The notes under the pieces were generated by a model. It saw nothing but the letters and a program-made list of their open reading frames with translations. It ran no database searches and was not told the origin of the DNA. 64,000 bases of DNA, from NCBI GenBank assembly GCA_002711845.1, contig PASF01000011.1:248001-312000 (forward strand), in the 5' to 3' direction. This DNA is from Gammaproteobacteria bacterium. GTDB taxonomy: Bacteria; Pseudomonadota; Gammaproteobacteria; Pseudomonadales; Pseudohongiellaceae. Below are positions 23,598 to 39,625 of the stretch, piece by piece. Each line of letters begins with the position of its first letter. The first letter of the stretch is position 1. The position numbers and the translations under genes are program-made.

Positions 23598-26500
23598 CTG
23601 CCGATAACGGAACACCTGCACGACCACCTGAACCGCGACTGCGGCGCGTCCTGCGCTGGCTGCTGCGAGGCCTGGCCGCCGTCTTTCTGCTGGTGCTGAT
23701 CACGCTCAGCGCCATCAGCGCCGCCCTGGGCACCCACCGGGGCAGCCAATGGGTGCTCGCACAGGCCAGCGAGCTGCTCAACAACAACACGATGAGCGTC
23801 AGTTTTGACCATGCGGAAGGCACTTTCCTGCGGGGCATCGACCTGTATGGCGTCAGTTATCGTAGCGGTGACAATCAGGTCACCGTCGCGCAGCTGCACA
23901 GCCGCTGGAACCCGATGACGCTGCTGGAAGGTGAATTCCATCTGCAATCCCTGCGGATAGCAGGCGTGCAGGTTGACTGGCATAGCGACCCCGACGCCCC
24001 TGCCGGTCCGCCCCTGGTGCTGGATGAGCTGCTTGCGTCCATCCTGCCGTTGCCGATATCGGTGCGCCTGTCCAATGCGCGCCTGGACGGCGCCACCATC
24101 AACTATGATGATGCCAGCTATACCATCAGTTCTCTTGGCCTGGATATGTCACTTCAGGGCCGTACTTTGGCTATTCAGGATCTGTCCTTTGATGCAGAGC
24201 CCCTGACACTGAGCGCAGGGCTGACGCTGGAACTGCAATCTCCGTATGGGGTGACTGCAGACGCCAGCTGGCAACTGGATGACAGCCTCCTTGAGGGCAC
24301 GCAGGCACCCGGTGGCACGCTGTCCCTTCAGGGCAACCTGGATCGGTTGCAAATGGAGCATGACCTGCGCGGGCTCACGGACGTGACATCCCGTGGTGAA
24401 ATCCAGCTGGGCCTTGCCCGACTGCTGAACGCACAAGGCGATGCGCTGGATCTGCGCGTCGACCTGCAGCATACACTGGCTACGCAGACCCTGCCGGGAC
24501 CCGGTATGGAGATGTTTACAGTGCAGGCATTGACGCTGCGTACCCAGGGTTCACCGGAAGACCTGGCGCTGTTTGCCGCAGCGCGGCTGGACATAGACCT
24601 GGCCGACGATTTTGTCCTGGAAACCGACCTCAACCTGCGCGCGGCACTGCGCGGCAGCCGATTGCAGGTTGACGAGCTGGCCATGCGAACTGCGACTGGC
24701 CTGCTGGCCATTGCTGGCAACGTCGACTGGGCTGACGGCGTCTCGGCCAACCTGGACTATCGCCTCGACGAACCGGCGCCGGGCGATTACATACCCGGAC
24801 TGCCCGATAGCATGATTATCGAAAATCTCCGCTCCAGTGGCCAGCTATCGTTCAGCCAGGCCGCAACAGGCCCGGCGGGAGAACCCGGCGCGCAGGTGCT
24901 GTCGTTCAGCATTGACAACCTCCAGGCAAGCGTCAACGACTACACCTTCACCGGCGATGGCGGCTTCGATTACGACGGCGACACCTGGACGGTCGATTCG
25001 TTTGCTTTGCAAACCGGCGAAAATCGCCTGGCATTGACCGCGTCACTCAGAGACGGCAACCGTATCAATGCCGATGCCAGTATTGATGCACCTGCGCTAA
25101 GCGTCATCTATCCAGACCTGGAGGGACGTCTGCGCGCAGACGCAACCGTCACTGGCAGGCTCGATGAGCCGGTAATCGATCTCGACCTGACTGCCAGCAA
25201 TGTTGTGTTCGGGGCTATCAGTGTCCCGGAACTTGTGGTGACAGGACAGAACCGTGGCGGCATGAACGAAATTGAACTGACCACCGGCAACATCCGGGTG
25301 CCAGTAGGCGAAACCACCGAAACTGTCAGCGATGTGTTGCTGCGCTTGCGCGGGCAGCCTGACGCGCACAATGTGCTGCTGCGCATGGACAGTTCCCTAG
25401 TCAATATCCGTCTGAATGCCGATGGCAGCTTAGCCAATGGCGGCTGGCGCGGACGCCTGCTAAGCAGTGAAATCAACTCCGACTACGGACGTTGGCAACA
25501 GAGCCAGGCAGCAGATATCTCGCTGGCCACCGAACAGATGAACATGGAAACGCTGTGTTGGGAAATGGTGGCGACCAACCTGTGCATCAACGCAGCCTTG
25601 TCCGGTGATGACCAGTTGGAGGCGCGCCTGACCCTGCAGGACTACCCACTGACAGCACTGAACCATGTCCCGTCCGAGCAACTGATTGCCCGGGATCTGG
25701 ACGCCAGCTTCCATGATGGCAACAGCGCCACCGCCGACATCCGCCTGCCTTTCACACTGCCTCCGGACACCGCACTGCAAGGCACAGTTTCGCTGGAGGC
25801 GACGGCTAGCGGCGTCATCTCCGACATTAACGGGTTGAACATCACCGTCAACGCCGGCAGCGAGAACGGCAACTTTTATGTGCGCTCGGAGCCGCCTGTC
25901 GATGATTTGACCGACATGGATATCCCCGAACCGGTTGTCACGCATTTTTCCTGGTCGAACATCGCGCTGAGCGCGAGTCAGCAGAATCGTGAATGGCAGG
26001 CCACCAGCCGGCTCAGGTTTGTGCAGGAAGACCCGGACAGTGCGGTGGCAGCCATGCGGGGTTCCGCCGATGCCAACTTGCGCATGACTGAGGCTCGCGA
26101 GATTGCCGGCAACGTGCAGCTGGACTTTGATGACCTGGGCTGGGTGGAGGCACTGGCCCCGCAGCTGAGCAACGTCACCGGCGAACTGGAAGGACAACTG
26201 AACCTGCAGGGGACATTGCAACAACCCGTCATCGGCGGCGACTTGATACTCAGCGATGCGGCCTTTGTCATGCCGTCACTGGGCCTGGACATGCGAGCCA
26301 TCGACGTGACCCTGAGTAGCGATGATGCCAATGCATTCTCCCTGGCCGGTTATGCCGAGTCCGGCGATGGTTCACTGGAATTCAGCAGTGACATCCTGCG
26401 GCCCTTTAGTGAAGAACGCAGCCTGACCATGCAATTGGCCGGCAGTAATTTTGTGATCGCCGATATGCCGGATCTGTCCGTTGCCATCAGCCCGGATCTG

Positions 26501-27394
26501 CGTGGAACCGCCAGCATGGCTGGCATAGACATCAATGGCCAGTTGCTTATTCCGCATGTTGATGCGCGGATTACCACATTGCCGGAGAGCGCCGTCGATG
26601 TCTCAAGTGACACCGTGATTGTGGCTGCAGACGACGGCAGTAACATCCGCAACGCAGCGCAGACCAATCGCGGCATCCTTGCCGACACCCCTGTTTCGGG
26701 CAATATCCAGCTGATTCTGGGAGAGGACGTCAACATCGCCGGATTTGGCCTGAACGCCCAGTTAAGCGGCCAGCTCGACATCGACCAGCGGCCCATGGCG
26801 TCGCCGCTGACGTACGGTGAACTTGAAGTGGCTGAAGGCAGCTTTGAGCTCTACGGGCGTACGCTCAATATCGAGCAGGGGAAACTGTTGTTCATGGGTA
26901 GCTACGACAACCCGGCCATTGACATCCGCGCTGTGCGGACAGTGGAAAACATGCGTGTCGGTGTGCAGATGAATGGCACCATTCGCGACATCCGCAGCAG
27001 CCTGTTCTCAACCCCGACCCTGCCCGACGGTGATATTCTCGCGGTGATGATTACCGGACGCCCGATCGCCGAAATCGGCACCGAGCAGGACGGCAATGCC
27101 CTGGTGGGTGCCATCACCGCACTGGGCATCAATCAGGGCCAGGGACTCACCGACCAGATTCAGAGCCAGCTGGGACTGGACACCTTTGCCATCAACAGTC
27201 GCGGCGATGTCAATGACAGCAGCCTGATGCTGGGCAAGTACATCACGCCGCGTATATTCATTCGTTATGCAGTAGGCCTGTTCGAGACCGAGAACAGCCT
27301 GGAAATTGACTATACGGTCAATGACCGGATCAAACTGGAAGCAACGTCAGGGCAAAGCCAGAGTATTGATCTGACCTACACCGTCGAGCAATGA
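23594..27394 (+). CDS. tamB: Translocation and assembly module protein TamB
   Basis: Large inner-membrane-anchored periplasmic protein of 1266 residues. It starts at a GTG overlapping the tamA stop (GTGA). One anchor helix lies at about residues 20-45 (LLRGLAAVFLLVLITLSAISA), followed by a very long beta-rich, taco-shaped repeat region predicted to bridge the periplasm and shield lipids, and the C-terminal DUF490 domain (about 930-1266) with RTLNIEQGKLLFMGSY, NPAIDIRAVRT and the ending TSGQSQSIDLTYTVE. The pairing with tamA is the standard arrangement. It converges with the transglutaminase gene, leaving only nine bases and no terminator that I can see. Confidence 0.93.
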   Translation: MTADNGTPARPPEPRLRRVLRWLLRGLAAVFLLVLITLSAISAALGTHRGSQWVLAQASELLNNNTMSVSFDHAEGTFLRGIDLYGVSYRSGDNQVTVAQLHSRWNPMTLLEGEFHLQSLRIAGVQVDWHSDPDAPAGPPLVLDELLASILPLPISVRLSNARLDGATINYDDASYTISSLGLDMSLQGRTLAIQDLSFDAEPLTLSAGLTLELQSPYGVTADASWQLDDSLLEGTQAPGGTLSLQGNLDRLQMEHDLRGLTDVTSRGEIQLGLARLLNAQGDALDLRVDLQHTLATQTLPGPGMEMFTVQALTLRTQGSPEDLALFAAARLDIDLADDFVLETDLNLRAALRGSRLQVDELAMRTATGLLAIAGNVDWADGVSANLDYRLDEPAPGDYIPGLPDSMIIENLRSSGQLSFSQAATGPAGEPGAQVLSFSIDNLQASVNDYTFTGDGGFDYDGDTWTVDSFALQTGENRLALTASLRDGNRINADASIDAPALSVIYPDLEGRLRADATVTGRLDEPVIDLDLTASNVVFGAISVPELVVTGQNRGGMNEIELTTGNIRVPVGETTETVSDVLLRLRGQPDAHNVLLRMDSSLVNIRLNADGSLANGGWRGRLLSSEINSDYGRWQQSQAADISLATEQMNMETLCWEMVATNLCINAALSGDDQLEARLTLQDYPLTALNHVPSEQLIARDLDASFHDGNSATADIRLPFTLPPDTALQGTVSLEATASGVISDINGLNITVNAGSENGNFYVRSEPPVDDLTDMDIPEPVVTHFSWSNIALSASQQNREWQATSRLRFVQEDPDSAVAAMRGSADANLRMTEAREIAGNVQLDFDDLGWVEALAPQLSNVTGELEGQLNLQGTLQQPVIGGDLILSDAAFVMPSLGLDMRAIDVTLSSDDANAFSLAGYAESGDGSLEFSSDILRPFSEERSLTMQLAGSNFVIADMPDLSVAISPDLRGTASMAGIDINGQLLIPHVDARITTLPESAVDVSSDTVIVAADDGSNIRNAAQTNRGILADTPVSGNIQLILGEDVNIAGFGLNAQLSGQLDIDQRPMASPLTYGELEVAEGSFELYGRTLNIEQGKLLFMGSYDNPAIDIRAVRTVENMRVGVQMNGTIRDIRSSLFSTPTLPDGDILAVMITGRPIAEIGTEQDGNALVGAITALGINQGQGLTDQIQSQLGLDTFAINSRGDVNDSSLMLGKYITPRIFIRYAVGLFETENSLEIDYTVNDRIKLEATSGQSQSIDLTYTVEQ

Positions 27395-27403
27395 CCACAG
27401 AGC

Positions 27404-28315
27404 CTAGATCAGCAAACGCTCACTGGCGACATCAATGACCGGGAGCACGTCCACGGCAACGGTAAGCTTGTGCTCGCCGCCGCCGGTCATGACGCCCTTG
27501 AGCGGCGTCACGTCGGCAAAATCACGCCCCCAGCCAAGCACGATATAGCGTTCATCGGGTACGCAGCCGTTAGTAGGGTCCACTTCCTGCCATCCCCAGC
27601 CCGGAATAAACGCGGCTACCCAGGCATGTGTCGCATCCGCACCCAGCAACTTTTCCTGCCCCGGTGGTGGCGACGTTTCCATGTAGCCGCTAACGTAACG
27701 CGCGGCCAGTCCCATGGCGCGCAGACAGCCAATCAGCAAATGGGCAAAATCCTGACACACCCCGCGTTTGTGCTCCAGCACCTCCTGCAGCGGGGTTGCC
27801 AATGTGGTTGAGTCCTCGTCATAAGTAAACTCGTTGAAAATGCGAACATTCAGCTCCAGCAGCGCATCCCGCAACAGTCGACCGGGCGCAAAACTGGCCA
27901 GCGCGTACTCTCGCAGCGCCGGTTGCCGCATGACAAACGGCGAGTCCAGCACAAACAGTCTGGCCGCGATACTGTCGCGGTTGCCAGTGCGAACCGCTCT
28001 CGACATTTCTGCCGCAGCATCTTCCCAGGCGGTTCCGGAAAAAAAATCCTGAGCCGGCCGTGGAAACGTCTCAACATCACTGGAAACGACAACCTCCAGG
28101 CTATTGTGCACCGCCTCAATGGCGAAGTACGCGACCCGATTGCCAAAAAAATCCTGCCGCTCCGACAGCCCGATGGCATCCGGGCTGATAATCAGCTGTG
28201 TGTTACTGCAGGTTTGCCAGGGCAACTGGCGCGGCAGAATGCGCGCTTCATTGTGGCTGAGTGTGGCCGGTCCGCTGTACTGATAATGTGTCAGGTGCCT
28301 TAATTTATATTTCAT
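27404..28315 (-). CDS. Transglutaminase-like protein (short form, 303 residues)
   Basis: Cysteine-protease-fold protein with the bacterial transglutaminase N-terminal beta domain (KYKLRHLTHYQYSGPATLSHNEARI...) and a transglutaminase core at about residues 160-240. The catalytic set is visible: Cys in HKRGVCQDFAHLL, His in DATHAWVAAFIPG and Asp in WQEVDPTNGC. No signal peptide, so cytoplasmic. Such proteins probably hydrolyse amide or isopeptide bonds rather than cross-link. It is the last gene of the minus-strand unit; its ATG overlaps the stop of the ATP-grasp/Alpha-E fusion by one base (TGATG), so the three genes are co-expressed. Confidence 0.9.
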   Translation of the reverse strand: MKYKLRHLTHYQYSGPATLSHNEARILPRQLPWQTCSNTQLIISPDAIGLSERQDFFGNRVAYFAIEAVHNSLEVVVSSDVETFPRPAQDFFSGTAWEDAAAEMSRAVRTGNRDSIAARLFVLDSPFVMRQPALREYALASFAPGRLLRDALLELNVRIFNEFTYDEDSTTLATPLQEVLEHKRGVCQDFAHLLIGCLRAMGLAARYVSGYMETSPPPGQEKLLGADATHAWVAAFIPGWGWQEVDPTNGCVPDERYIVLGWGRDFADVTPLKGVMTGGGEHKLTVAVDVLPVIDVASERLLI

Positions 28316-30906
28316 CAGTGCGCCACGTCCATGGTTACCAGTTGTCGGGAAGCTTCGACATGGCTGAAATGACTGTGCGACACCGCATCAGATAATTCGG
28401 CCATGGGCTCGATCAGGTCGTCAAGCAGCGCCATCAGAATGTCGCGAGCATCCTCCGAATGCTGCAGATCGGCAAGGCTGTCGATGTCGACCAGATGCAG
28501 GGTACTGGTGGCCTGAATAATCAATCGATTCTCAAGGTTGCGATAGGACGTATTTTCACTGGTGGATGGCAGCCTTGCCACCTGCCGCCCAAGACGCTTG
28601 AGCATGTAGCCGACCGAGCGCGGATTGCTTTCATCGAACAGCAACAGATCGAGTATAGCAGAAGGGTGCAACTGCGACCGGTAACGGCGGCGGTAAACGG
28701 TGAAATTGTCGGTGGTCGCCAGCACCACTTCCCACAATGGGATGCCCGGCTGATTGGCCGTCAGTAACGCCAGCTTGAGTAGCTGCAGTGTGCCCAGCAC
28801 ACGTTCGATAAACCGGCCGATATCGAGGAAGCGCCAGCCATAATGATGCGGCATGGTTTCATTACACAAGCCGAAAAATGCCGCCAGGTCAATCACGATG
28901 GCCTCCAGCAATCGCTGCCCGGCCACAACGCCTTTGGTCCGCGAGATGGCATTGCACCGCTGGCGAATACTGCTGACCGAACGCCAGGCATCGTCACCCA
29001 GATGATCGCGCACCGCGCGGCTGTTGCGCACAAAATGACTGAATGTCATCGGCAACCCATCCGGGGCCTGATCTGTGAGCAGGTTTAACAGGCGATCGCG
29101 CGCCAGCAGATACTCTGGGGAAAACCGGGGATGCTCGCCGATTGCCGCCAGCTCATCTGCCAGCTCTTCCTCATCGGGTGCCACACCCAGCGCGGTGAGC
29201 AGATCAGGCAGCAACGTCACCACTGCCTCCTGCGGACTTTCCTGCAACAATCGCCCGAGCGCTTCGCGCAGCAAGCGCGCGCGGATATCCAGACGCTCAC
29301 CGTAGCGTCCCATCCAGAACAGGCTTTCGGCAACACGACAGGGCAAATCCTTGCCATCACGGGTGACCAGAATGGGGCCCTGGGCCTGCCGCAGCATGCT
29401 GACATGGGGCTGCGGAGCTTGCGCCAACACCCAGATATCCTTGACCACGCGGCTTTTCATCAGGGGTGCGCCAGGCTCGCCGACCCATGCCAGCCCGCCG
29501 GGCATGATCCGAAACGAGTGTTCGTTGACCGGCTTGTTGATATCGTCTGCCTCGATGGCGGAAAAGAACCGTAACGTTGTGGTCTGCCGCTCCACGGTCT
29601 TGCTGGCCGGGTTAAACCCCGGTGTTACGCCCGCCTGCAAGGGCTTTTGTGCCGTAAACAGATGCGGCCGCGACTGCAGATCAAGGCGCAGTGACTGCAC
29701 CGCGGCCAGCCCCATCTGGTCAACACGGAACGTCTTGCCGGGGCGGGTGATGTCGCGCAACACCCACTCATCCATCGAGCCTCTGATTTGCTCCAGGGCC
29801 TGAAGATCACCGCACCAAAGCGCATCACGGCCACGCAACATCAGGGTTTCACCCAGCAGACGCTGACACAGATTGGGCAGAAATGCTGCCAGTGCCGGAT
29901 GCTCCAGCACGCCCGCGCCCAGCGCATTGACGATATGCACATGACCGCTGCGCGCAGCCTGCATCAGACCCGGCACACCCAGCAGCGAGTCCGGACGCAG
30001 CTCCAGCGGATCACACCAGGGGTCATTGATCTGGCGCATGATGACATCAACCTGGTGCAGACCGCCCAATGTCCGCACGGCAACCTGGCCATCGCGCACG
30101 ACCAGATCGTCGCCTTCGACCAGCGGAAAATTCATGTAGTTGGCAAGCCAGGCATGTTCGAAGTAACCGGGACTGCCCGGACCGGGTGTCCACAGCACAA
30201 TATTGGGTTCCTGACGCTGACTGCCGGCCAGACTGGCCAGACAGCGGTGCTGTGCCTGCAGAAATCCGGCCAGGCGTTTGATCGGTGCATCACGATAAAC
30301 ACCGGGCAGCGCCCTCGAAAGCGTAATCCGGTTCTCCAGGGCATAGCCGACACCGGCCGGCGACTGGGTCCAGTCGGCCAGCACCTGCCACTGTCCATGT
30401 TCATCGCGGATGACATCAGTGCCGTGAAAAATGAGTAATGGCCGATGGACCAGCGAAGGCACGTCGGCTGCCGAGAACAGAAATCCGGGATGAGTATAGA
30501 CCAGCTCCGGTGGCAGCAGCCCTTCGTCGATCACCTGTCGCTGGCCATAAAGATCGTCAAGCAGCAGGGCCAGCAAACGGCTGCGCTGACGCAGGCCAGC
30601 CTCAAGATAGGACCAGTCTGCATCACTGATGACACAGGGCATGCAATCCAGACGCCATGAGCGCAACTGGCCCGGATCATCTTCGTAGGGATTGAAGGTG
30701 ACACCGTTTTCGTGCAGCAGGCTTTGTGCTTCTTCGCTGCGCGCCACCAGGGTGTCTGCCCCCATGGCCACAATTTCAGCCAGCAATGGCTGCCAGTGGG
30801 CACGGGGCTGCTGGTTCGGGCTAAGCAGTTCATCGTGGCCGCTGTGGCCCGGATAGTCGCCAAGCAGGTCTCTCAAGGCAGGATCTTTAGTGCCCGAAGG
30901 CTGCAT
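28315..30906 (-). CDS. Fused circularly permuted ATP-grasp and Alpha-E domain protein
   Basis: An 863-residue fusion of the two proteins that occur separately at 34487 and 35979. Residues about 40-515 align with the circularly permuted ATP-grasp (LLDDLYGQRQVIDEGLLPPEL, ILTPG-like VLWTPGPGSPGYFEHAWLA, VEGDDLVVRDG, VDVIMRQIND). Residues about 525-850 are an all-helical Alpha-E domain starting LPCRVAESLFWMGRYGERLD. Compared with the stand-alone ATP-grasp, motifs around the nucleotide site differ: VLEDNLRVPSG becomes VLADWTQSPAG, and the KPANESGGYG loop is replaced by VLRDITRPGKTFR. The ATP-grasp half may therefore have changed chemistry or lost activity. Predicted amidoligase, substrate unknown. 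Confidence 0.88.
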   Translation of the reverse strand: MQPSGTKDPALRDLLGDYPGHSGHDELLSPNQQPRAHWQPLLAEIVAMGADTLVARSEEAQSLLHENGVTFNPYEDDPGQLRSWRLDCMPCVISDADWSYLEAGLRQRSRLLALLLDDLYGQRQVIDEGLLPPELVYTHPGFLFSAADVPSLVHRPLLIFHGTDVIRDEHGQWQVLADWTQSPAGVGYALENRITLSRALPGVYRDAPIKRLAGFLQAQHRCLASLAGSQRQEPNIVLWTPGPGSPGYFEHAWLANYMNFPLVEGDDLVVRDGQVAVRTLGGLHQVDVIMRQINDPWCDPLELRPDSLLGVPGLMQAARSGHVHIVNALGAGVLEHPALAAFLPNLCQRLLGETLMLRGRDALWCGDLQALEQIRGSMDEWVLRDITRPGKTFRVDQMGLAAVQSLRLDLQSRPHLFTAQKPLQAGVTPGFNPASKTVERQTTTLRFFSAIEADDINKPVNEHSFRIMPGGLAWVGEPGAPLMKSRVVKDIWVLAQAPQPHVSMLRQAQGPILVTRDGKDLPCRVAESLFWMGRYGERLDIRARLLREALGRLLQESPQEAVVTLLPDLLTALGVAPDEEELADELAAIGEHPRFSPEYLLARDRLLNLLTDQAPDGLPMTFSHFVRNSRAVRDHLGDDAWRSVSSIRQRCNAISRTKGVVAGQRLLEAIVIDLAAFFGLCNETMPHHYGWRFLDIGRFIERVLGTLQLLKLALLTANQPGIPLWEVVLATTDNFTVYRRRYRSQLHPSAILDLLLFDESNPRSVGYMLKRLGRQVARLPSTSENTSYRNLENRLIIQATSTLHLVDIDSLADLQHSEDARDILMALLDDLIEPMAELSDAVSHSHFSHVEASRQLVTMDVAH

Positions 30907-30951
30907 ATCGTTTACCGCGGTGTGGTTTGCTGTTGAAGTATCAGGCCTGCA

Positions 30952-33900
30952 TTATAGACCAGTGCTGGCAACGCCGGCACGTCTTAGATCCAGCGTATGC
31001 GGATAGTCCTGTCCAGGTGCCTGCGGGATATGCTCAACTTTGCCGTGGCTGTGGCCATGCGCCCAGAAGCGGGCCATGCGCCGGGCTTCCGCCTCGTTGG
31101 CGTTGACCGGGAACGTCTCGTAGTTGCGACCGGCAGGATGCACCACATGGTAGGTACAGCCACCCATGGAGCGCTGATGCCAGGTGTCCACCAGGTCAAA
31201 CACCAGCGGTGCATGCACCTTGATGCGCGGATGCAACGCCGATGGTGGCTGCCAGGCCCGGTAGCGCACTGCGGCCACCGCCTCCCCCGGCACGCCGGTG
31301 GCCTGCAGCGGCACTTTGTAGCCATTGCAGGTCAGGACATGCCGCGAGGGATTGAAGTCAGTGAGTTTAACCTCCAGACGCTCAACAGACGAGTCCACAT
31401 AACGCGCAGTACCCCCGCCACTGGCCTCTTCCCCCAGCACATGCCAGGGTTCAATCGCCTGACGCAGGCTCAGATGCGTGCCTTCGTACCTGACCTCACC
31501 GATCATCGGGAAGCGGAACTCCAGGAACGGCGCGAACCAGGCCAGGTCAAAATCAAAGCCATGCTCGCGCAGATCAACCAGCACATCGGCCAGATCCTGC
31601 CAGATAAAATGGGGCATCATCCATTTGTCGTGTAGCGCAGTGCCCCAGCGCACCAGCGGTTTACGATAGGGATCCTGGTAAAAACGCGCAACCAGTGCCC
31701 GGATCAACAACTGCTGCATCAGACTCATTTCCGCGTGTGGGGGCATTTCAAAACCCCGTAGCTCGAGCAGGCCAAGGCGCCCGGTTGCCGAATCCGGGGA
31801 ATACATCTTGTCCACGCAGAACTCGGCGCGATGGGTATTGCCGGTGATATCCGTGAGCAGATTGCGTACCAGCCGGTCTACCAGCCAGGGTTCCCGGACA
31901 TCGCCTTTGGGCATTTGCGACAACGCAATTTCCAGTTCATACAGGGCTTCGTGACGGGCCTCATCGACCCGCGGCGCCTGACTGGTCGGCCCGATAAACA
32001 TGCCGGAGAACAGATACGACAGACTGGGGTGATGCTGCCAGAAGGTCAGCATACTGCCCAGCAGATCCGGACGGCGCAGAAATGGCGACTCCTCCGGTGT
32101 GCGTCCGCCCAGCGTAACGTGATTGCCGCCGCCGGTGCCGGTATGGCGACCGTCGAGCATGAATTTTTCCGTACCCAGGCGCGTCAGCCGGGCCTCCTCA
32201 TAGAGTACGCGCGTGTTGTCGACCAGATCCGGCCAGGACGACGCCGGCATGACGTTAACTTCGATGACGCCCGGATCCGGGGTGATCATGAATTTTTCCA
32301 GACGCGGATCCGATGGTGGCGGATATCCTTCTATGCACACCGGCATCTGCAATGCAGCGGCCGTGTGTTCAACAACTGCCAGCAGACTCAGGTAATCTTC
32401 CAGCAGGTTCAACGGCGGCAGAAATATAAACAGTTTGCCTTCGCGCGCTTCAATACACAGCGCCGTGCCAATAACGCCCTCGTCGGCGATATCGATCAGC
32501 TGCTCCTGCCAGTTCTGCCCGGCCCCCTGATGATGATGCCCGGGTGTTCCTTCGGTGTCGGCAGGCACATGATTGTACATGCGCGCCACTTCGCCGGCCT
32601 GGCCAAGCAAATCGTCCAGTTCCGGTAACTCGGCAAACGGCGAGCGCGGTGGAATTTCCTCACGCTTTTTGATGGGCAAAGACGACAGCGGCAGGCGAAG
32701 TCCCATGGGCGAGTCGCCCGGGATCAGGAACAGGTGGTCACGCTTCAATGGCCAGTGCCCGGTCATCCAGCGACCGTTTTCGCGCGTCAGCGGCAAGGTC
32801 AGCCCGACCGGTTTGTCCAGGCCCCGTTCCAGCACACGGGCCAGCCGTGCACGGTTGATGTCATCACTGAGATCTTCCGCGTGCAGGTCCAGATCCGCCG
32901 GTTGCTGTTGCTCGAGCCACAGATAATAATAGGCGTCTTCGTGACACGGGATCAGGAAACGGGCAGGCACCTTGAGTGCTGTCACCAGCGCATTGGCAAA
33001 CCCCCTGGCTTCCTTCTCTCCAAAACCGTAATCCGTGTCGATGTCAGCCAGCCATTGATCGTCCCGCCACATTGGCTTGCCATCGCGACGCCAGTAACAG
33101 GCCAGTGCCCAACGCGGCAGCACTTCCCCCGGATACCATTTGCCCTGTTGATACTGCAACAGGGAATTGGGCGCATAATGCGGTCGCAGGCGCCGCATCA
33201 ACTGTTCCGACAATTTGCGTTTGGTGGGACCCTGCGCGGCAATGGTCCATTCTGGTGCATCCATGTCATCCACTGACACAAAGGTGGGCTCGCCACCCAT
33301 GGTTAACCGCACATCCAGCGCTTCCAGTTGCCTGTCCACCACATCGCCCAGGGCATCAATGCGGGTCCATTGTGATTCGGTATAGGGTTTGGTAACCCGT
33401 GGATCTTCATGCACCCGGGTGACACTCATTTCAAAACCAAAGGTGACCTCGGTAGGCTCTGTGGCACCGGTTATCGGCGCTGCACCGGCGGGATCGGGCG
33501 TGGCCGCCAGTGGCAGATGTCCTTCGCCGGCAAACAGACCCGAGGTAGGATCAAGACCAATCCAGCCCGCGCCTGGAATGAAAACCTCACACCAGGCGTG
33601 CAGATCGGTAAAGTCCTTGTCAGTGCCGGATGGCCCATCAAGCGCCTTCACATCAGCCGTCAGCTGGACCAGATACCCCGACACAAACCGCGCAGCCAAA
33701 CCCAGGCGACGCAGAATATGTACCAGCAGCCACGTTGAGTCACGGCATGACCCACGGGCCAGCTCAAGTGTTTCCTGGGGTGTCTGCACCCCAGGCTCCA
33801 TACGAATCAGGTATTCAATGTCCTGCGCCAGTCGCTGATTCAGTCCGACCAGGAAGCCGGTGATGTCAGTATGGTCACGTTTGACACTGCTCAGCCACTT

Positions 33901-34284
33901 GTCCAGCAAGGGCCATGATTGACTGCTCTCCAGGTAGGGCGCCAGCTCTTTTCGAAGCGCCGGCGTGTAGTCAAAGGGGAAATGCTCAGCGTACTCTTCG
34001 ACAAAAAAGTCAAAGGGGTTGACCACGGTCATCGGGGCGATCAACTCGACATCAATATGCAATCGGGAAATCTTCTCCGGGAACACCAGCCGCGCGATAT
34101 GGTTGCCAAACGGATCCTGCTGCCAATTGATGAAGTACTCGCCGCCGGTAATTTTCAGACTGTAGGCATCAATTGGCGTACGGCAATGCGGTGCCGGCTT
34201 CAGGCGTATCTGGTGGGCACCCACCTCAATGGGTCGGTCAAATTCATAACGGGTGGAATGTTTCAGTGCTACGCGGATGGTCAT
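30952..34284 (-). CDS. Large transglutaminase-DUF2126 protein
   Basis: About 1110 residues from the ATG at 34284 (MTIRVALKHSTRYEFDRPI); the open frame to 34341 adds residues with no homology character. The N-terminal 290 residues are a transglutaminase unit: beta domain, then Cys in LARGSCRDSTWLL, His in FTDLHAWCEVFIPG and Asp in WIGLDPTSG. The remaining 800 residues are DUF2126, with DALGDVVDRQLEALDVRLTMGGEPTFV, GRHTGTGGGNHVTLGG and ESPFLRRPDLL. DUF2126 resembles a glutamine synthetase/ATP-grasp-type amidoligase fold in published comparisons, so this protein may join and cut amide bonds. First gene of the minus-strand unit, 45 bases before the fusion gene, behind its own promoter. Confidence 0.9.
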   Translation of the reverse strand: MTIRVALKHSTRYEFDRPIEVGAHQIRLKPAPHCRTPIDAYSLKITGGEYFINWQQDPFGNHIARLVFPEKISRLHIDVELIAPMTVVNPFDFFVEEYAEHFPFDYTPALRKELAPYLESSQSWPLLDKWLSSVKRDHTDITGFLVGLNQRLAQDIEYLIRMEPGVQTPQETLELARGSCRDSTWLLVHILRRLGLAARFVSGYLVQLTADVKALDGPSGTDKDFTDLHAWCEVFIPGAGWIGLDPTSGLFAGEGHLPLAATPDPAGAAPITGATEPTEVTFGFEMSVTRVHEDPRVTKPYTESQWTRIDALGDVVDRQLEALDVRLTMGGEPTFVSVDDMDAPEWTIAAQGPTKRKLSEQLMRRLRPHYAPNSLLQYQQGKWYPGEVLPRWALACYWRRDGKPMWRDDQWLADIDTDYGFGEKEARGFANALVTALKVPARFLIPCHEDAYYYLWLEQQQPADLDLHAEDLSDDINRARLARVLERGLDKPVGLTLPLTRENGRWMTGHWPLKRDHLFLIPGDSPMGLRLPLSSLPIKKREEIPPRSPFAELPELDDLLGQAGEVARMYNHVPADTEGTPGHHHQGAGQNWQEQLIDIADEGVIGTALCIEAREGKLFIFLPPLNLLEDYLSLLAVVEHTAAALQMPVCIEGYPPPSDPRLEKFMITPDPGVIEVNVMPASSWPDLVDNTRVLYEEARLTRLGTEKFMLDGRHTGTGGGNHVTLGGRTPEESPFLRRPDLLGSMLTFWQHHPSLSYLFSGMFIGPTSQAPRVDEARHEALYELEIALSQMPKGDVREPWLVDRLVRNLLTDITGNTHRAEFCVDKMYSPDSATGRLGLLELRGFEMPPHAEMSLMQQLLIRALVARFYQDPYRKPLVRWGTALHDKWMMPHFIWQDLADVLVDLREHGFDFDLAWFAPFLEFRFPMIGEVRYEGTHLSLRQAIEPWHVLGEEASGGGTARYVDSSVERLEVKLTDFNPSRHVLTCNGYKVPLQATGVPGEAVAAVRYRAWQPPSALHPRIKVHAPLVFDLVDTWHQRSMGGCTYHVVHPAGRNYETFPVNANEAEARRMARFWAHGHSHGKVEHIPQAPGQDYPHTLDLRRAGVASTGL

Positions 34285-34344
34285 TGGGCTCAGCTTCCGA
34301 AGAGTATGGCAAGAGGATAGCAACGCCTGTGCCAAAAGCAAGGT

Positions 34345-34486: not shown

Positions 34487-35977
34487 ATGAGCCACATCAA
34501 CTGGGAAGAATACAAAGCTAGCGGGTTCTATGACGAATTGATTGCTGCCGACGGCAAACCGCGACCCGAAGCACACAGGCTATGCCAGTATCTGGCCAGT
34601 CTGGATGCCCGCGAACTTCAGGAACACAAGACTGCCGCCGAAGTTGCCATCCAGCTGATGGGCATTACCTTTACCGTTTATACCGAAGGCACCATGATTG
34701 ACCGTGCCTGGCCTTTTGATATCGTGCCCCGCATCATCCCGCTGCAGGAATGGCAAAAAACCGAAGCCGGCCTGAAGCAACGCGTGCAGGCATTGAACAT
34801 GTTTATCGATGACCTGTATCACGACCAGAAGATCATCAAGGACGGTATTTTCCCCAAAGAACTGCTCTCGCATTCGGTCAATTTCCGTCCACAGTGCGTG
34901 GGCATCAAGACCCCCCACAATGTCTGGGCACACATCTGTGGCTCCGACCTGGTGCGCGACAAGGATGGCGTGCTCTATGTACTGGAGGACAATTTGCGAG
35001 TTCCCTCGGGCGTGTCTTACATGCTGGAGAATCGCAATGTCACCAAACGCATCATGCCCGAGCTGTTCGCTTCAGGCCAGATCCAGCCGGTGGATGATTA
35101 CACCTCGCAGCTCTATGACATGCTGGCATCCATGTCACCGCGGCCGGGTGATGATCCTTCCATTGTGATACTGACGCCGGGCATCTACAACTCCGCGTAC
35201 TACGAGCACGCGTATCTCGCCCAGCAGATGGGCGTCCAGCTGGTGGAAGGCTCGGACCTGGTAGTCGGAGACGATGACTGTGTGTATATGCGCATGGTTG
35301 ACGGACTGTCCCGCGTTGATGTGATCTACCGCCGTGTCGATGACATGTTTCTTGACCCGGAAGTTTTTAACCCTGAGTCAGCACTGGGCTGCCGCGGCCT
35401 GATGCGGGCCTGGCGCAAAGGCAATGTCGCGCTGGCCAATGCGCCGGGGGCCGGTGTGGCCGATGACAAGGTGGTATACGCCTTTGTCCCCAAAATCATC
35501 AAATACTACCTGGATCAGGAAGCACTGCTGCCCAACGTGCCCAGTTACCTGTGCATGTTTGAAGATGATCGTAACTACGTACTCGACAATCTCGACAAAC
35601 TGGTGGTAAAACCGGCCAACGAGTCCGGCGGTTATGGCATGATGATAGGGCCGCATGTCAGTAAAAAAGAGCGCAAGAAGTTTGCTGAACTGATCAAGGC
35701 GGATCCGCGCAATTACATGGCGCAACCGACGCTGGCGCTGTCCACATCGCCGACCCTGATAGACCATGGCATGGAGTCACGTCACGTCGACTTACGCCCC
35801 TTCATACTGTCAGGGGAATCGACCTTCGTCACCACCGGCGGACTCACCCGGGTGGCACTCACCAAGGGGTCCCTGGTGGTGAATTCATCCCAGGGCGGCG
35901 GCAGTAAAGATACCTGGATCGTCGATGCCGACGGTCTCAATGAGCTCCCGGGCCTTTCACAGAGAGCAGGAAACTAG
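34487..35977 (+). CDS. Circularly permuted ATP-grasp protein (stand-alone)
   Basis: A 496-residue amidoligase-like protein (DUF404/DUF407 type). Motifs expected of an active enzyme are present: FIDDLYHDQKIIKDGIFP, YVLEDNLRVPSGVSYMLENR (about residues 164-183), ILTPGIYNSAYYEHAYLA, LVEGSDLVVGDD, NAPGAGVADDK, KPANESGGYGMMIGP (about 376-390, phosphate-binding loop in the permuted order) and SRHVDLRPFILSG. It should use ATP to form an amide bond between a carboxylate and an amine, on an unknown small molecule or peptide. First gene of the plus-strand unit; the Alpha-E gene starts one base after its stop. Confidence 0.92.
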   Translation: MSHINWEEYKASGFYDELIAADGKPRPEAHRLCQYLASLDARELQEHKTAAEVAIQLMGITFTVYTEGTMIDRAWPFDIVPRIIPLQEWQKTEAGLKQRVQALNMFIDDLYHDQKIIKDGIFPKELLSHSVNFRPQCVGIKTPHNVWAHICGSDLVRDKDGVLYVLEDNLRVPSGVSYMLENRNVTKRIMPELFASGQIQPVDDYTSQLYDMLASMSPRPGDDPSIVILTPGIYNSAYYEHAYLAQQMGVQLVEGSDLVVGDDDCVYMRMVDGLSRVDVIYRRVDDMFLDPEVFNPESALGCRGLMRAWRKGNVALANAPGAGVADDKVVYAFVPKIIKYYLDQEALLPNVPSYLCMFEDDRNYVLDNLDKLVVKPANESGGYGMMIGPHVSKKERKKFAELIKADPRNYMAQPTLALSTSPTLIDHGMESRHVDLRPFILSGESTFVTTGGLTRVALTKGSLVVNSSQGGGSKDTWIVDADGLNELPGLSQRAGN

Positions 35978-35978
35978 G

Positions 35979-36941
35979 ATGCTTTCACGTGTTGCAGAAA
36001 ACATTTACTGGCTGGCCCGCTACATAGAGCGCGCTGAAGACACCGCACGCCTGCTCAGCGTCAACAGCAACCTGATGCTTGACCTGCCCCGTGCCACACA
36101 GCTGGGCTGGGCTGAAATCATTGCCATTACCGGCCATGGTGACCTGTTTGACGAGCTGTACCCCCATCGCGACGAAGCCAGTGTGCTGTCGTTTATCTGC
36201 AGTGATCAGCGTTATTCAGGCTCCATTATCAGCTCTCTGTCGGCTGCTCGTGAGAACCTGCGTACGACGCGCGACATCATCCCACGCGAAATATGGGAAG
36301 AGATCAATCAACTTTATCTTGGCGTCCGCGACCTTGTCGACTCCGGCGTCACACCACGCAAACGAGATGCCTTTCTCAGCCGTGTCATTCGCAGCTGCCA
36401 GACCGTCAACGGTCTGATTGAAGGCTCTCTGAGCTACACCCAGGTAAGGACGTTCTTGATGCTCGGACGCCAGCTCGAGCGCGCCGACATGACCACCCGC
36501 ATCATTGATGTGCGTTCCGCCAACCTGCTACCACGCAGCCCGGGCGAGCTGACCCCGTTTGAAAACCTGCAATGGATGAGCGTTCTCAAATCACTCAGTG
36601 GTTACCAGATGTATCGACAGCACGTGCGCCTGCGTATTCGCGGTCCGGATGTACTCAGCTTCCTGCTACAGAACCGTCATTTCCCGCGCGCAGTGGCCTG
36701 CAGCCTGGAGCGACTGGCCAATGCACTGACCACGTTGCCGCGCAACGAAACGGCGCTGAACGAAGTCGAAACCTGTCGCCAGCATCTGGCTGATGCGGAA
36801 ATTGCCGTGCTGGCTGCCGAGCCCGATCGCCTGCATGCCTTTGTGGATGAAATCCAGGTTGATTTTACCGATCTGCATGAGGCCATCCGGCAAACCTATT
36901 TTAACGGCCCGGCCGGGATATCGCAGCAGCAGAGCCAATAG
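35979..36941 (+). CDS. Alpha-E domain protein
   Basis: All-helical protein of 320 residues that nearly always accompanies the circularly permuted ATP-grasp. It starts at ATG 35979 with MLSRVAENIYWLARYIERAEDTARLL, the family's opening motif; AACTAGGATG places the start directly after the ATP-grasp stop, behind an AGGA-type site. An earlier in-frame ATG (35925) lies inside the ATP-grasp gene and is not needed. Later blocks are REQ-like RENLRTTRDIIPREIWEEIN and LGRQLERADMTTRIIDVR. Function unknown; a partner or acceptor-binding subunit of the ligase is inferred from constant association. Confidence 0.92.
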   Translation: MLSRVAENIYWLARYIERAEDTARLLSVNSNLMLDLPRATQLGWAEIIAITGHGDLFDELYPHRDEASVLSFICSDQRYSGSIISSLSAARENLRTTRDIIPREIWEEINQLYLGVRDLVDSGVTPRKRDAFLSRVIRSCQTVNGLIEGSLSYTQVRTFLMLGRQLERADMTTRIIDVRSANLLPRSPGELTPFENLQWMSVLKSLSGYQMYRQHVRLRIRGPDVLSFLLQNRHFPRAVACSLERLANALTTLPRNETALNEVETCRQHLADAEIAVLAAEPDRLHAFVDEIQVDFTDLHEAIRQTYFNGPAGISQQQSQ

Positions 36942-38057
36942 GTGCAAACGTTGGCAGGAAAATCTTACGGTCATGTCCATCATTGCCAGTGCGGCCAGTT
37001 ATTGTTCTTTGATAATTCAGTCTGCTTGCGCTGTGGCGCAGCGGTTGCCTATCAGCCCAATCTGGGGCAGGTCAAAAGCCTGGAACCGGCCGGCACGCAA
37101 AACAAATGGTACATCCATGGTGACGCTGCCAGTACCCGGCGCGGCTACGCGCGCTGTGCCAACCTGCATTCCCCGGCTCAATGCAACTGGCTGGTCACCG
37201 ACACGCGGACGGGCGATCTGTGTACCGCCTGTGCGCTCGACATTACCATTCCGGATTTGAGTCAGGCTGATAACGCAAGCTACTGGCAGGCATGTGAAGG
37301 CGCCAAACGCCAGCTCATTGCGCAGCTCATCATGCTCGGCCTGCCAGTGAATAATCGCAAGATAGACCCGTACCGCGGCCTGGGTTTTGAACTGTTGCGC
37401 TGGCAACAGGGGGAGCCGCCGGTCATGACCGGCCACAAAGATGGTGTCATTACGCTTGACATCATGGAGGCCGACCCGGCGCACCGCGAGCAACTGCGCC
37501 AGCAGATGCATGAGCCCTATCGCACCCTGCTCGGCCATTTCCGTCACGAGTCTGGTCATTACTATTGGGACCTGCTGGTGCGAGACACGCCCTGGCTGAG
37601 CGCCTGCCGCCGGCTGTTCGGAGATGACCGCGCAGACTACAACAACGCGCTGCAGCAGCACTACCAGAATGGCCCACCCGCAAACTGGCAGCTTAATTAC
37701 ATCAGCAGTTACGCCGCTTCCCACCCCTGGGAAGATTGGGCGGAAACCTGGGCGCATTACCTGCACATGACCGACACTCTGAATGCCGCTGCCCAGTTTG
37801 GCATTAACGCCAACGCTATCGCCGTGCACACGGACCCCTTTACCCGGGAGCAGATTGCCGATGCGCCCAAGGCGGATGACAGCACTGGCAAGGCTGCCGT
37901 TGAAGACACCTTTCTTAACATGGTCAATGACTGGGTCCGCCTGAGCAGCGTACTCAATGTGCTGGCCCGAAGTATGGGCCAGCCTGACAGCTATCCGTTT
38001 GTGTTAACGGTGGCCAGTCTGCGAAAGCTGTTTCTGGTGCATCAGGTCATTGGATAA
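36942..38057 (+). CDS. Zinc-ribbon and HExxH metallopeptidase-like protein
   Basis: A 371-residue protein of the putative zinc-binding metallopeptidase family often found beside Alpha-E and ATP-grasp genes. The N-terminus has a zinc ribbon (CQC at 15-17, CLRC at 28-31), with further Cys at 72, 81, 94 and 97. The gluzincin-like site HESGHYYW is at residues 202-209, followed by WEDWAETWAHYLHMTD (about 242-257), where the Glu or His may be the third ligand. Translation starts at a GTG directly after the Alpha-E stop, so it belongs to the same operon. Predicted cytoplasmic peptidase. It may process the product of the ligase or the small peptide encoded 94 bases downstream; this is inference. Confidence 0.88.
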   Translation: MQTLAGKSYGHVHHCQCGQLLFFDNSVCLRCGAAVAYQPNLGQVKSLEPAGTQNKWYIHGDAASTRRGYARCANLHSPAQCNWLVTDTRTGDLCTACALDITIPDLSQADNASYWQACEGAKRQLIAQLIMLGLPVNNRKIDPYRGLGFELLRWQQGEPPVMTGHKDGVITLDIMEADPAHREQLRQQMHEPYRTLLGHFRHESGHYYWDLLVRDTPWLSACRRLFGDDRADYNNALQQHYQNGPPANWQLNYISSYAASHPWEDWAETWAHYLHMTDTLNAAAQFGINANAIAVHTDPFTREQIADAPKADDSTGKAAVEDTFLNMVNDWVRLSSVLNVLARSMGQPDSYPFVLTVASLRKLFLVHQVIG

Positions 38058-38150
38058 ATCGAAGCAGCGACCGTTTCCTTCTACTACACTTCTATCGTCA
38101 GGGATGAAATCCCCGACATTCCCAAGACGATAAAACAAGGAGTGTTTACA

Positions 38151-38297
38151 ATGCAAGAGTTGACGCAAGCAGAAATTTCGCAAGTCAGTGGCGGCCTGGG
38201 ACCGCTCGCCATCATTGGCATCGACCTGGCACTAAATGGTGTCTTGATTGCTTATGCCTCATTCATGACATCCGATTACATGAACGGCGACTCGTAA
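38151..38297 (+). CDS. Double-glycine leader peptide (microcin/bacteriocin-like precursor), 48 residues
   Basis: A small gene behind an excellent ribosome site (AAGGAG at 38137-38142, eight bases before the ATG). The first 15 residues, MQELTQAEISQVSGG, carry the full double-glycine leader pattern: Leu at -12, Thr at -11, Glu at -8, Ile at -7, Val at -4, Ser at -3 and Gly-Gly at -2/-1. This aligns position by position with the microcin V leader, which is also 15 residues. The core is 33 residues, hydrophobic for about 22 (LGPLAIIGIDLALNGVLIAY...), with a polar end TSDYMNGDS and no cysteine. Such leaders are cut and exported by C39-peptidase ABC transporters; none lies in this window. It follows the zinc peptidase gene by 94 bases and is followed by a long hairpin. 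Not recognised as a named family. Confidence 0.72.
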   Translation: MQELTQAEISQVSGGLGPLAIIGIDLALNGVLIAYASFMTSDYMNGDS

Positions 38298-38302
38298 TGG
38301 CA

Positions 38303-38341
38303 AATGTCCATCTGCTGCGAGGCACAAGGCAGATGGACATT
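38303..38341. terminator. 13-base perfect hairpin after the leader-peptide gene
   Basis: AATGTCCATCTGC (38303-38315) and GCAGATGGACATT (38329-38341) are exact complements, with a 13-base loop. It begins five bases after the stop of the small gene and lies ten bases before the stop of the convergent membrane protein gene. There is no T run, so it may end transcription inefficiently or protect the short mRNA. Confidence 0.5.
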
Positions 38342-38350
38342 CCGGGTCTA

Positions 38351-38587
38351 TCAGCCGCGAAGATGTATTAACAGCGACACGCCGACCAGGATAAGGCCAC
38401 CGACAATGCTCCAGGTAACGGGCCCGCCGTTTAGCAGCATTTCCGGATCGTGCAAACTGACGACCAGAGCCGCAGCAGATATCATCAGGGCGCCGAGCAG
38501 GCCACCGGCTCTGCGAACCTGCATCCAGGCTGTCGAAGACAAATCATGTGTTGCAGATGGTTTGTTGCATTTATGGTTTTTAGTCAT
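38351..38587 (-). CDS. Small two-helix membrane protein, 78 residues
   Basis: A hydrophilic start (MTKNHKCNKPSATHDLSS) leads into two hydrophobic segments (about residues 28-45 and 57-75), joined by HDPEMLLNGGPVT, and a basic end LIHLRG. An inner-membrane helical hairpin is likely. AGGGGGGTG stands about seven bases before the ATG. It converges with the double-glycine peptide gene. Small membrane proteins next to bacteriocin genes are often immunity proteins, and this is a candidate, although it is on the opposite strand, which is less usual. I do not recognise the family. Confidence 0.55.
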   Translation of the reverse strand: MTKNHKCNKPSATHDLSSTAWMQVRRAGGLLGALMISAAALVVSLHDPEMLLNGGPVTWSIVGGLILVGVSLLIHLRG

Positions 38588-38700: not shown

Positions 38701-39420
38701 TCAGCGGCGGGCAGACAGTTCGAATCCCTTCTCAATGGTAGGCTTGACTATCCGGAAGTACGGCGACAGATCAAAATCGCCCGGTACATAATGGGTAAAA
38801 TGCCGCGCAACGGATACCACCTCGCCCTTTTTGTCTTCTACCTTGATCAATTCTGGCAGAATGGGATACGCCACCGTCTGGAAGGCCTCGGCAATCAGTG
38901 TTGAACAGATAGCCTGGGTCGGCTCTCCGCTACCGAAGGCAATCATGTCACGACGATACCTGACAGGCACCGCGGGGCTCTGAATCAGGTATCTGGCCAG
39001 ATCAAATATGTTTTTCAGATCATAAACATGCCCGACCCTGTCGCGAGCAAAATTCATGACGGCTTCCTTGTCGGCGGCGCTCAGCCCCACCGGTCGGCAG
39101 ATACGGATATTGAACTGTTCATATTTGCGCAGCGGGACAACTGTGACACCTTCAGTCAGGTCGGCTTCAATCAGGCATGGCTGTCCCACGTCGCTCTGCT
39201 GCGCACCGACATACAGACACGCGTGCGACCAGGTCGACTGCGTCAGATACTTGATGGCGGTGCTGATGTGGCTGTTGCCGTCCACCAGCACGATATCGGC
39301 CGGTTGCAGGGTATCCATGATGTCCTGCAACGGCAAGCGGCTCAGGCGCTCGTATCCGGGACGGGGCTTGCTCAGATAGGCTGCGAGGCGGCGCCCTAAC
39401 GCACGGGAGATGGAGTCCAT
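38701..39420 (-). CDS. Permuted papain-like amidase, YaeF/YiiX C92 family
   Basis: About 239 residues from the ATG at 39420 (MDSISRALGRRLAAYL); the open frame to 39525 adds Cys-rich sequence with no family character. The circularly permuted NlpC/P60-type core shows LQPADIVLVDGNSHISTAIKYLTQSTWSHACLYVG in pieces: the His of TWSHACLYVG and, later, the catalytic Cys in TQAICSTLIAEAF. The order His before Cys is what defines the permuted C92 group. YiiX-type enzymes cleave amide bonds in lipid- or peptide-linked substrates. It is the first gene beyond the amidoligase/peptide region, and an amide hydrolase there fits the theme, but a functional link is unproven. Confidence 0.82.
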   Translation of the reverse strand: MDSISRALGRRLAAYLSKPRPGYERLSRLPLQDIMDTLQPADIVLVDGNSHISTAIKYLTQSTWSHACLYVGAQQSDVGQPCLIEADLTEGVTVVPLRKYEQFNIRICRPVGLSAADKEAVMNFARDRVGHVYDLKNIFDLARYLIQSPAVPVRYRRDMIAFGSGEPTQAICSTLIAEAFQTVAYPILPELIKVEDKKGEVVSVARHFTHYVPGDFDLSPYFRIVKPTIEKGFELSARR

Positions 39421-39625
39421 CGTAATCGGCTCTCTTGTTTGTTCAGTATAAAACCAGCAACGCATGCCGTCACCGGCGTTCTGCGACAGCCGAAGAGTAT
39501 CGCACCCTTTACTTTCTGTCTCCAACAGCCTGACCCGATGGTGGCTGCAGAGGGCGGGTCAACAATGTTATTGTGTGAAAATGCACCGTCCGGTGACATC
39601 ACCCGACTATCAGGAGGTCATCAAC

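Follow-up and report, generated by a model that had tools for sequence, protein, structure and literature searches.

The 64,000-nt stretch of DNA analyzed here (the window) carries at 38151-38297 a gene for a conserved precursor peptide of 48 amino acids. We consider it likely that the product is a bacteriocin of the class II microcin type, with a probable immunity gene convergent to it and its exporter encoded elsewhere in the genome. The coding, conserved precursor, its companion gene and the presence of an exporter, a membrane-fusion protein (MFP) and outer-membrane factors in the genome are directly supported. In favor of a bacteriocin are the match to the bacteriocin family TIGR03949, the C39 exporter with its MFP, the small companion with two transmembrane helices, the purifying selection on the peptide against the fast divergence of its partner, and the varied contexts in which the cassette was found.

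According to this reading the precursor would be made from its own promoter, and the C39-peptidase ABC exporter encoded on contig C9 would recognise the leader and cut after the double glycine. The core of 33 residues, presumably membrane-active, could then leave through the adjacent MFP and an outer-membrane channel and would inhibit related cells, while the convergent two-helix protein (38351-38587) would shield the producer.

The window lies on contig C11 of the host genome (G000), which is 3.59 Mb in size and whose assembly is listed with 4.33% contamination. Compared genomes are given as G numbers and fetched loci as L numbers, L061 being the locus of one further homologue. The genus sample consisted of 15 genomes of the window's genus including the own one, two of them under 90% complete, and protein-versus-genome searches were run on 144 genomes, again with the own one included. 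The features of the region are as follows:

36942-38057, plus strand: Peptidase_Mx/zinc-ribbon gene, last of the ATP-grasp operon; a neighbor, not a partner (Pfam; distribution)
38085-38090, plus strand: putative -10 box TACACT (TAHACT in 6/7 loci)
38139-38142, plus strand: GGAG ribosome site (position common to 7/7 homologous loci)
38151-38297, plus strand: precursor peptide gene, 48 aa (translation, TIGR03949 above cut-off, homologues, dN/dS)
38151-38195, plus strand: double-glycine leader, 15 codons (invariant residues in seven sequences; AlphaFold helix 6-12)
38196-38294, plus strand: core of 33 residues, a hydrophobic helix (residues 17-40) and then a polar tail ending in Ser (AlphaFold)
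38303-38341, no strand assigned: hairpin of 13 bp, probable two-way terminator (strong hairpin in 5/6 loci)
38351-38587, minus strand: two-helix membrane protein, 78 aa, convergent, probable immunity protein (companion in 6/6 close loci, alignment, AlphaFold)
38701-39525, minus strand: C92 (YaeF/YiiX-type) amidase gene, right flank of the cassette (Pfam PF05708; flank common to G013)

The precursor peptide and its relatives

The initial annotation had read the 48-codon ORF as a real gene with a strong ribosome site, a double-glycine leader of 15 residues and a core of 33 residues lacking cysteine. Leader and core were confirmed by translation, and the gene itself by the TIGR03949 match, the homologues, the purifying selection and the ribosome site. 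The GGAG starts 12 bases ahead of the ATG in the window and 10-13 bases ahead across all seven homologous loci. Within the leader E3, L4, T5, E8, Q11, V12, G14 and G15 were invariant in the seven sequences. AlphaFold predicted one helix in the leader (6-12) and one in the core (17-40), whereas the tail, which reads SDYMNGDS, is loose. The mean pLDDT was 76 for the whole precursor, 90 for residues 21-30 and 87 for residues 31-40. Structurally solved relatives were not found at E values up to 1.

The TAHACT motif was located at -60 to -66 in six of the seven loci, the exception being L061, and the upstream genes differ between the loci. It occurred by chance in 104 of 5000 random 60-nt stretches. 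A consensus promoter scan of the window listed no promoter upstream of the peptide gene.

The search against precursor families, which had been proposed beforehand, assigned the peptide to TIGR03949 (class IIb bacteriocin, lactobin A/cerein 7B family; NCBIfam) with 27.4 bits against a curated cut-off of 21.5, and with 25.6 bits in a whole-genome search. The match covers the leader and the beginning of the core. A Pfam search of the precursor gave no match, and the model of ATP-grasp-modified RiPP precursors (TIGR04497) stayed at 12.1 bits against a cut-off of 32, with leader residues 3-15 aligned only. A strict leader pattern hit the window once and none of 100 Markov-random windows. The likeness to the lactobin A/cerein 7B family thus lies in leader and core start scoring above the cut-off; in contrast to that family, the peptide has no second double-glycine peptide alongside, its exporter gene is not adjacent and its companion is convergent. 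A two-peptide class IIb bacteriocin was rejected, since neither the strict nor a loose pattern found a second double-glycine leader within the window. A pattern scan of L039-L042 and L061 found no second leader as well, in a scan that also missed the known peptide in L043.

A second TIGR03949 peptide is encoded in the own genome at C1:521683 (L044:9684-10069), and a near copy of it is present in G013. The ORF directly behind it, on that strand, is small and hydrophobic.

Six homologues of the 48-aa peptide with 56-92% identity were found in Pseudohongiella and related Gammaproteobacteria, the named records being Pseudohongiella sp., P. nitratireducens, Pseudomonadales bacterium and Gammaproteobacteria bacterium. 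Among the 144 genomes 43 matched at E values up to 1 and six, including the own one, at 3e-14 or better. The strong matches in the five other genomes (E 1e-23 to 3e-14) were those of G011 (92%), G014, G001, G012 and G020 (60%), the last being a carrier from another genus of the family. A scan of 84,980 species genomes yielded 111 pattern stretches, of which seven were confirmed, namely the same five, L061 and the leader-only match L062. Of 369 genomes drawn from the class, nine matched at E values up to 0.01: the own genome and eight with a leader-only or partial match. Searches of 72,556 plasmid records and 50,697 phage records gave no match of the peptide, and none of 37 pattern stretches from viral contigs was confirmed. 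A mobile element as carrier of the peptide was rejected on these grounds.

The peptide gene is under purifying selection. Between the window and G011, dN was 0.05 and dS 1.45. The remaining pairs likewise had dS values above 1.4 or at saturation, except for G014 and G001 (dN 0.01, dS 0.26).

The convergent membrane protein

All six close loci carried an ORF on the opposite strand right behind the peptide gene, of 63-78 codons (82 in G011 if counted from the first start codon) and with two hydrophobic helices. Such an ORF was found in 44 of 4000 random 360-base stretches on one strand (about 1%) and in 88 of 4000 on either strand, the stretches being taken from the window and from fetched loci of over 8 kb. 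Locus L061 had instead a two-helix ORF of 73 codons on the peptide's own strand. The alignment of the partners from the six loci revealed the motif P-x-x-(L/V)-L ahead of the second helix, which five of them continue with x-G, and identities of 24-39% to the window's protein. With the latter as query, tblastn recovered only three of the five relatives. For the 78-aa partner AlphaFold predicted helices at 13-46 and 56-77 with low confidence (mean pLDDT 67).

Class II microcin immunity proteins are described in the accessible text of PMC10233263 as adjacent, small (51-216 aa, median 82) and with predicted inner-membrane helices. Because the partner matches this description in position, size and helices, we regard the convergent 78-aa protein as probably the immunity protein of the peptide. 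Two points speak against a bacteriocin at this place: the partner matched no known family and no sensor domain above cut-off in profile searches, and the convergent order is unlike the overlapping peptide and immunity genes that the same text describes for class II microcins.

The partner diverges fast (dN 0.57, dS 0.87 between the window and G011), and the peptide is far better conserved. This is compatible with a signalling peptide as well, a pheromone exported by the C39 transporter for which the small membrane protein would act as sensor or regulator. A weak similarity of the leader to BlpC (11.5 bits, cut-off 70) and kinase-like and receiver-like ORFs, judged by eye, 3-6.5 kb upstream of the peptide in G014 point in the same direction. 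However, that pair sits among restriction genes, a sensor/regulator pair did not recur beside the peptide in the other loci (ORFs judged by eye), the partner shows no sensor domain above cut-off, and the core is predicted to form a long hydrophobic helix that ends in a polar tail. Signalling therefore appears improbable to us, and the bacteriocin with its immunity protein is preferred.

The initial annotation had also placed a 13-base hairpin behind the peptide gene. Its arms, 38303-38315 and 38329-38341, are indeed exact over 13 bp; what had to be amended is its setting: genes converge on it from both sides, and no run of T comes after it. The folding z-score was -2.7 on the plus and -3.0 on the minus strand. 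A strong hairpin of different sequence lay between the convergent genes in five of six loci and was absent in G012. It is probably a two-way terminator.

The ATP-grasp operon and the cassette surroundings

The genes at 34487-38057 upstream of the peptide encode a circularly permuted ATP-grasp protein (CP_ATPgrasp_2), an Alpha-E protein and a Peptidase_Mx with zinc ribbon, so that Pfam agreed with the initial description of these genes on the peptide's strand. It had further been suggested that the peptide could be a substrate of this operon, and that homologous small genes might recur beside such operons. In the window the peptide gene follows Peptidase_Mx on the same strand after 93 bases, it is adjacent in G011 too, and in G001 it lies 4.2 kb off on the same strand. 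Yet the two adjoin in only two of the seven homologous loci, and no operon homologues were seen in the flanks fetched for G014, G012, G020 and L061 (roughly 8-10 kb per side). Peptidase_Mx was present in 14 of the 15 genus genomes (E up to 1e-20), whereas the peptide was found in five; ten genomes encode the peptidase but lack the peptide; conversely, in G012, a carrier of the peptide, no Peptidase_Mx match reached 1e-20. Given these distributions and the peptide's own promoter-like box, we rejected the link to the operon and consider a role as its substrate extremely unlikely. A wrong lead to a peptide substrate of the ATP-grasp/Alpha-E operon is thereby removed.

The surroundings of the peptide and its partner vary, with restriction genes beside them in G014 and an HNH nuclease gene in G001. 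In G013 both flanks of the window's cassette (37905-38047 and 38723-39420) could be aligned, but other DNA lies in between. The two genes are best read as an accessory cassette whose chromosomal location varies, the site behind the ATP-grasp operon being just one of several.

At the cassette's place G013 carries, between the Peptidase_Mx and C92 genes, an open frame of 223 codons (L185:2689-3357; stop to stop, clipped by the stretch shown), which by eye resembles a biotin transporter. On the minus strand of the window, 27404-34341 hold a divergent set with a transglutaminase-like ORF (by eye), an ORF of 863 aa that resembles ATP-grasp as well as Alpha-E proteins, and an amidoligase of the transglutaminase-DUF2126 kind with 1129 aa. 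The Anbu protease is often accompanied by ATP-grasp, Alpha-E and transglutaminase genes, as stated in the accessible part of PMC5666114. In 24000-28400, four ORFs reach at least 150 aa, and by eye none of them is such a protease.

Export genes, acyl genes and C-terminal serine

A C39-peptidase ABC exporter with an MFP elsewhere in the genome had been named beforehand as a point to check, and both were found on contig C9. The own genome encodes one full transporter of this kind (C9:190215, E 2e-34, 702 aa), which is not linked to the peptide, with a HlyD-type MFP of 428 aa directly upstream. In addition, three strong and one weak outer-membrane factors of the PF02321 family were detected, as candidates for the TolC-type channel. 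In 13 of the 15 genus genomes a full C39 exporter with a fusion protein next to it was recorded, the C39 matches there being strong and located in frames as long as a transporter. Double-glycine peptides are encoded directly behind the homologous exporter gene in G014 (L104:5039-5372), G001 (L105:5150-5480), G004 (L130:2217-2477) and G039 (L170:4442-4738), which ties this exporter family to such peptides. All six peptides read behind these four exporters end in Ser.

In the two remaining genus genomes, G002 and G012, C39 matches were weak and confined to short frames, and the ABC proteins that the transporter matched best there align behind the peptidase domain. G012 keeps the peptide and its partner, yet no C39-ABC exporter was detected in it. 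This is the main counter-evidence to the bacteriocin reading. It would fit an orphan precursor whose export was lost and which is kept mainly because the partner confers immunity, as would the few members known (seven loci). Against such an orphan stand the purifying selection on the peptide and the retention of the leader's double glycine and the ribosome site in seven of seven loci and of the -10-like box in six of seven, and we hold it to be very improbable. A bacteriocin remains our preferred interpretation.

The likeness to class II microcins (microcin V type, Enterobacterales) consists in the 15-aa double-glycine leader, the adjacent small membrane protein and the C39-ABC transporter, MFP and outer-membrane factor in the genome. 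The leader of 15 aa ending in GG falls within the signal length of 15-18 aa given in the accessible text of PMC10233263. Judged from sequence, the five published components of class II microcins (PMC9746304 and PMC10233263, accessible parts) appear to be present in form, though scattered. The differences are the unlinked exporter, which stands in a cluster with acyl genes, the convergent partner and the other bacterial group. Ten class II microcins had been verified by 2022, from E. coli and Klebsiella (PMC9746304, accessible part). The kind, a microcin-type bacteriocin, is already known and the peptide is a new member; from the Pseudohongiella group, distant from these two hosts, it adds a conserved microcin-type peptide and a probable, so far unnamed immunity family. 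Outside the Enterobacterales a bacteriocin accompanied by secretion genes and by an immunity factor has been described for Moraxella catarrhalis (PMC2761928, accessible part); the two are likened by description only, and in contrast to our peptide that bacteriocin is plasmid-borne with its own secretion genes. A Pseudohongiella bacteriocin was not found described in the literature, as covered by titles and abstract openings with few subscription journals.

The exporter cluster on contig C9 (L045:4762-11291) comprises genes for a fatty-acyl-AMP-ligase-like (FAAL) protein, a small ACP, an LpxL-like acyltransferase, the MFP and the C39-ABC transporter. All five genes were present in nine of the 13 genus exporter loci. 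Those of G004 and G010 are cut by contig ends; no ACP was found in G005, and neither ACP nor acyltransferase in G003. Nine of 14 further family loci, picked for an acyltransferase match, contained all five genes as well. G020, a carrier of the peptide, had two exporter stretches without acyl genes, and acyltransferase and ligase on another contig. A profile of the acyltransferase matched 50 of 144 relatives, where the six lowest-ranking matches were weak (E between 1e-7 and 1e-5), and a single-sequence search matched one of 274 class genomes, the own one.

The acyltransferase has 420 residues and an LpxL-type domain (Lip_A_acyltrans). LpxL proteins carry the motif HX4D/E; in its place the cluster enzyme has H-M-G-D as the invariant motif. 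Since FAAL, ACP and acyltransferase genes stand in the exporter cluster and are conserved in relatives, the peptides might be fatty-acylated. The double-glycine peptides of the family, the window's included, would then be lipidated microcins: a dedicated cluster would load a fatty acid, transfer it to the peptide, perhaps to its C-terminal Ser, and export the lipopeptide after leader removal, one exporter serving several scattered peptide/immunity cassettes. We put this forward as a tentative and rather unlikely proposal. If the cluster does acylate peptides, it would be a new route to ribosomal lipopeptides built from parts of the lipid-A acyltransferase type. In titles and abstract openings, with few subscription journals covered, we found no description of a C39 exporter cluster that includes FAAL, ACP and LpxL-like acyltransferase.

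Within the genus all 12 double-glycine peptides that were read in the acyltransferase-positive genomes G000, G001, G004, G011, G013 and G014 end in Ser. The ending was absent from both peptides of G003 and G010, which have the exporter and no acyltransferase match, and present in G002 and G012, which have neither. The C-terminal Ser as a covariate of the acyltransferase, clean-looking in the genus, failed in the family-wide tally, where it was found in 21 of 27 peptides from acyltransferase-positive genomes, four of five from negative ones and three of six from genomes of unknown status. Because the ending does not follow the presence of the acyltransferase across the family, we propose acylation of the peptides with reserve.

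What remains is a Ser bias of the whole family. Inside the family 28 of 38 double-glycine peptides ended in Ser, and outside it one of 14. These sets were gathered by several different leader searches and a single regular expression, and some of their rows are doubtful ORFs; in one set of 35 candidate rows, 31 were translated. Open frames longer than 160 codons were left out with the peptides in them, apparently including those of G512, G052 and G074, which end in Ser. By clusters, crudely formed and with the window peptide's family split over two of them, the ratio was 10 of 14 against one of nine (Fisher P 0.009).

Among class IIb (siderophore) microcins Ser is likewise known as the C-terminal residue. 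According to the accessible text of PMC10233263 their C-terminus is an eight-residue motif rich in Gly and Ser, whereas the tail of our peptide is not Gly/Ser-rich over eight residues. With regard to possible fatty acylation of a ribosomal peptide there is a likeness to two other groups. Selidamides are fatty-acylated RiPPs, and so are the nostolysamides, as far as the accessible part of their description goes. The candidate enzyme here, suggested by gene content, differs in being LpxL-like, with FAAL and ACP in the exporter cluster.

Finally, identical C39-like scores and frame lengths were recorded in the own genome at C6:281511 and C14:81602, and a second such pair at C6:292195 and C14:71212, as if one stretch were perhaps present on two contigs.
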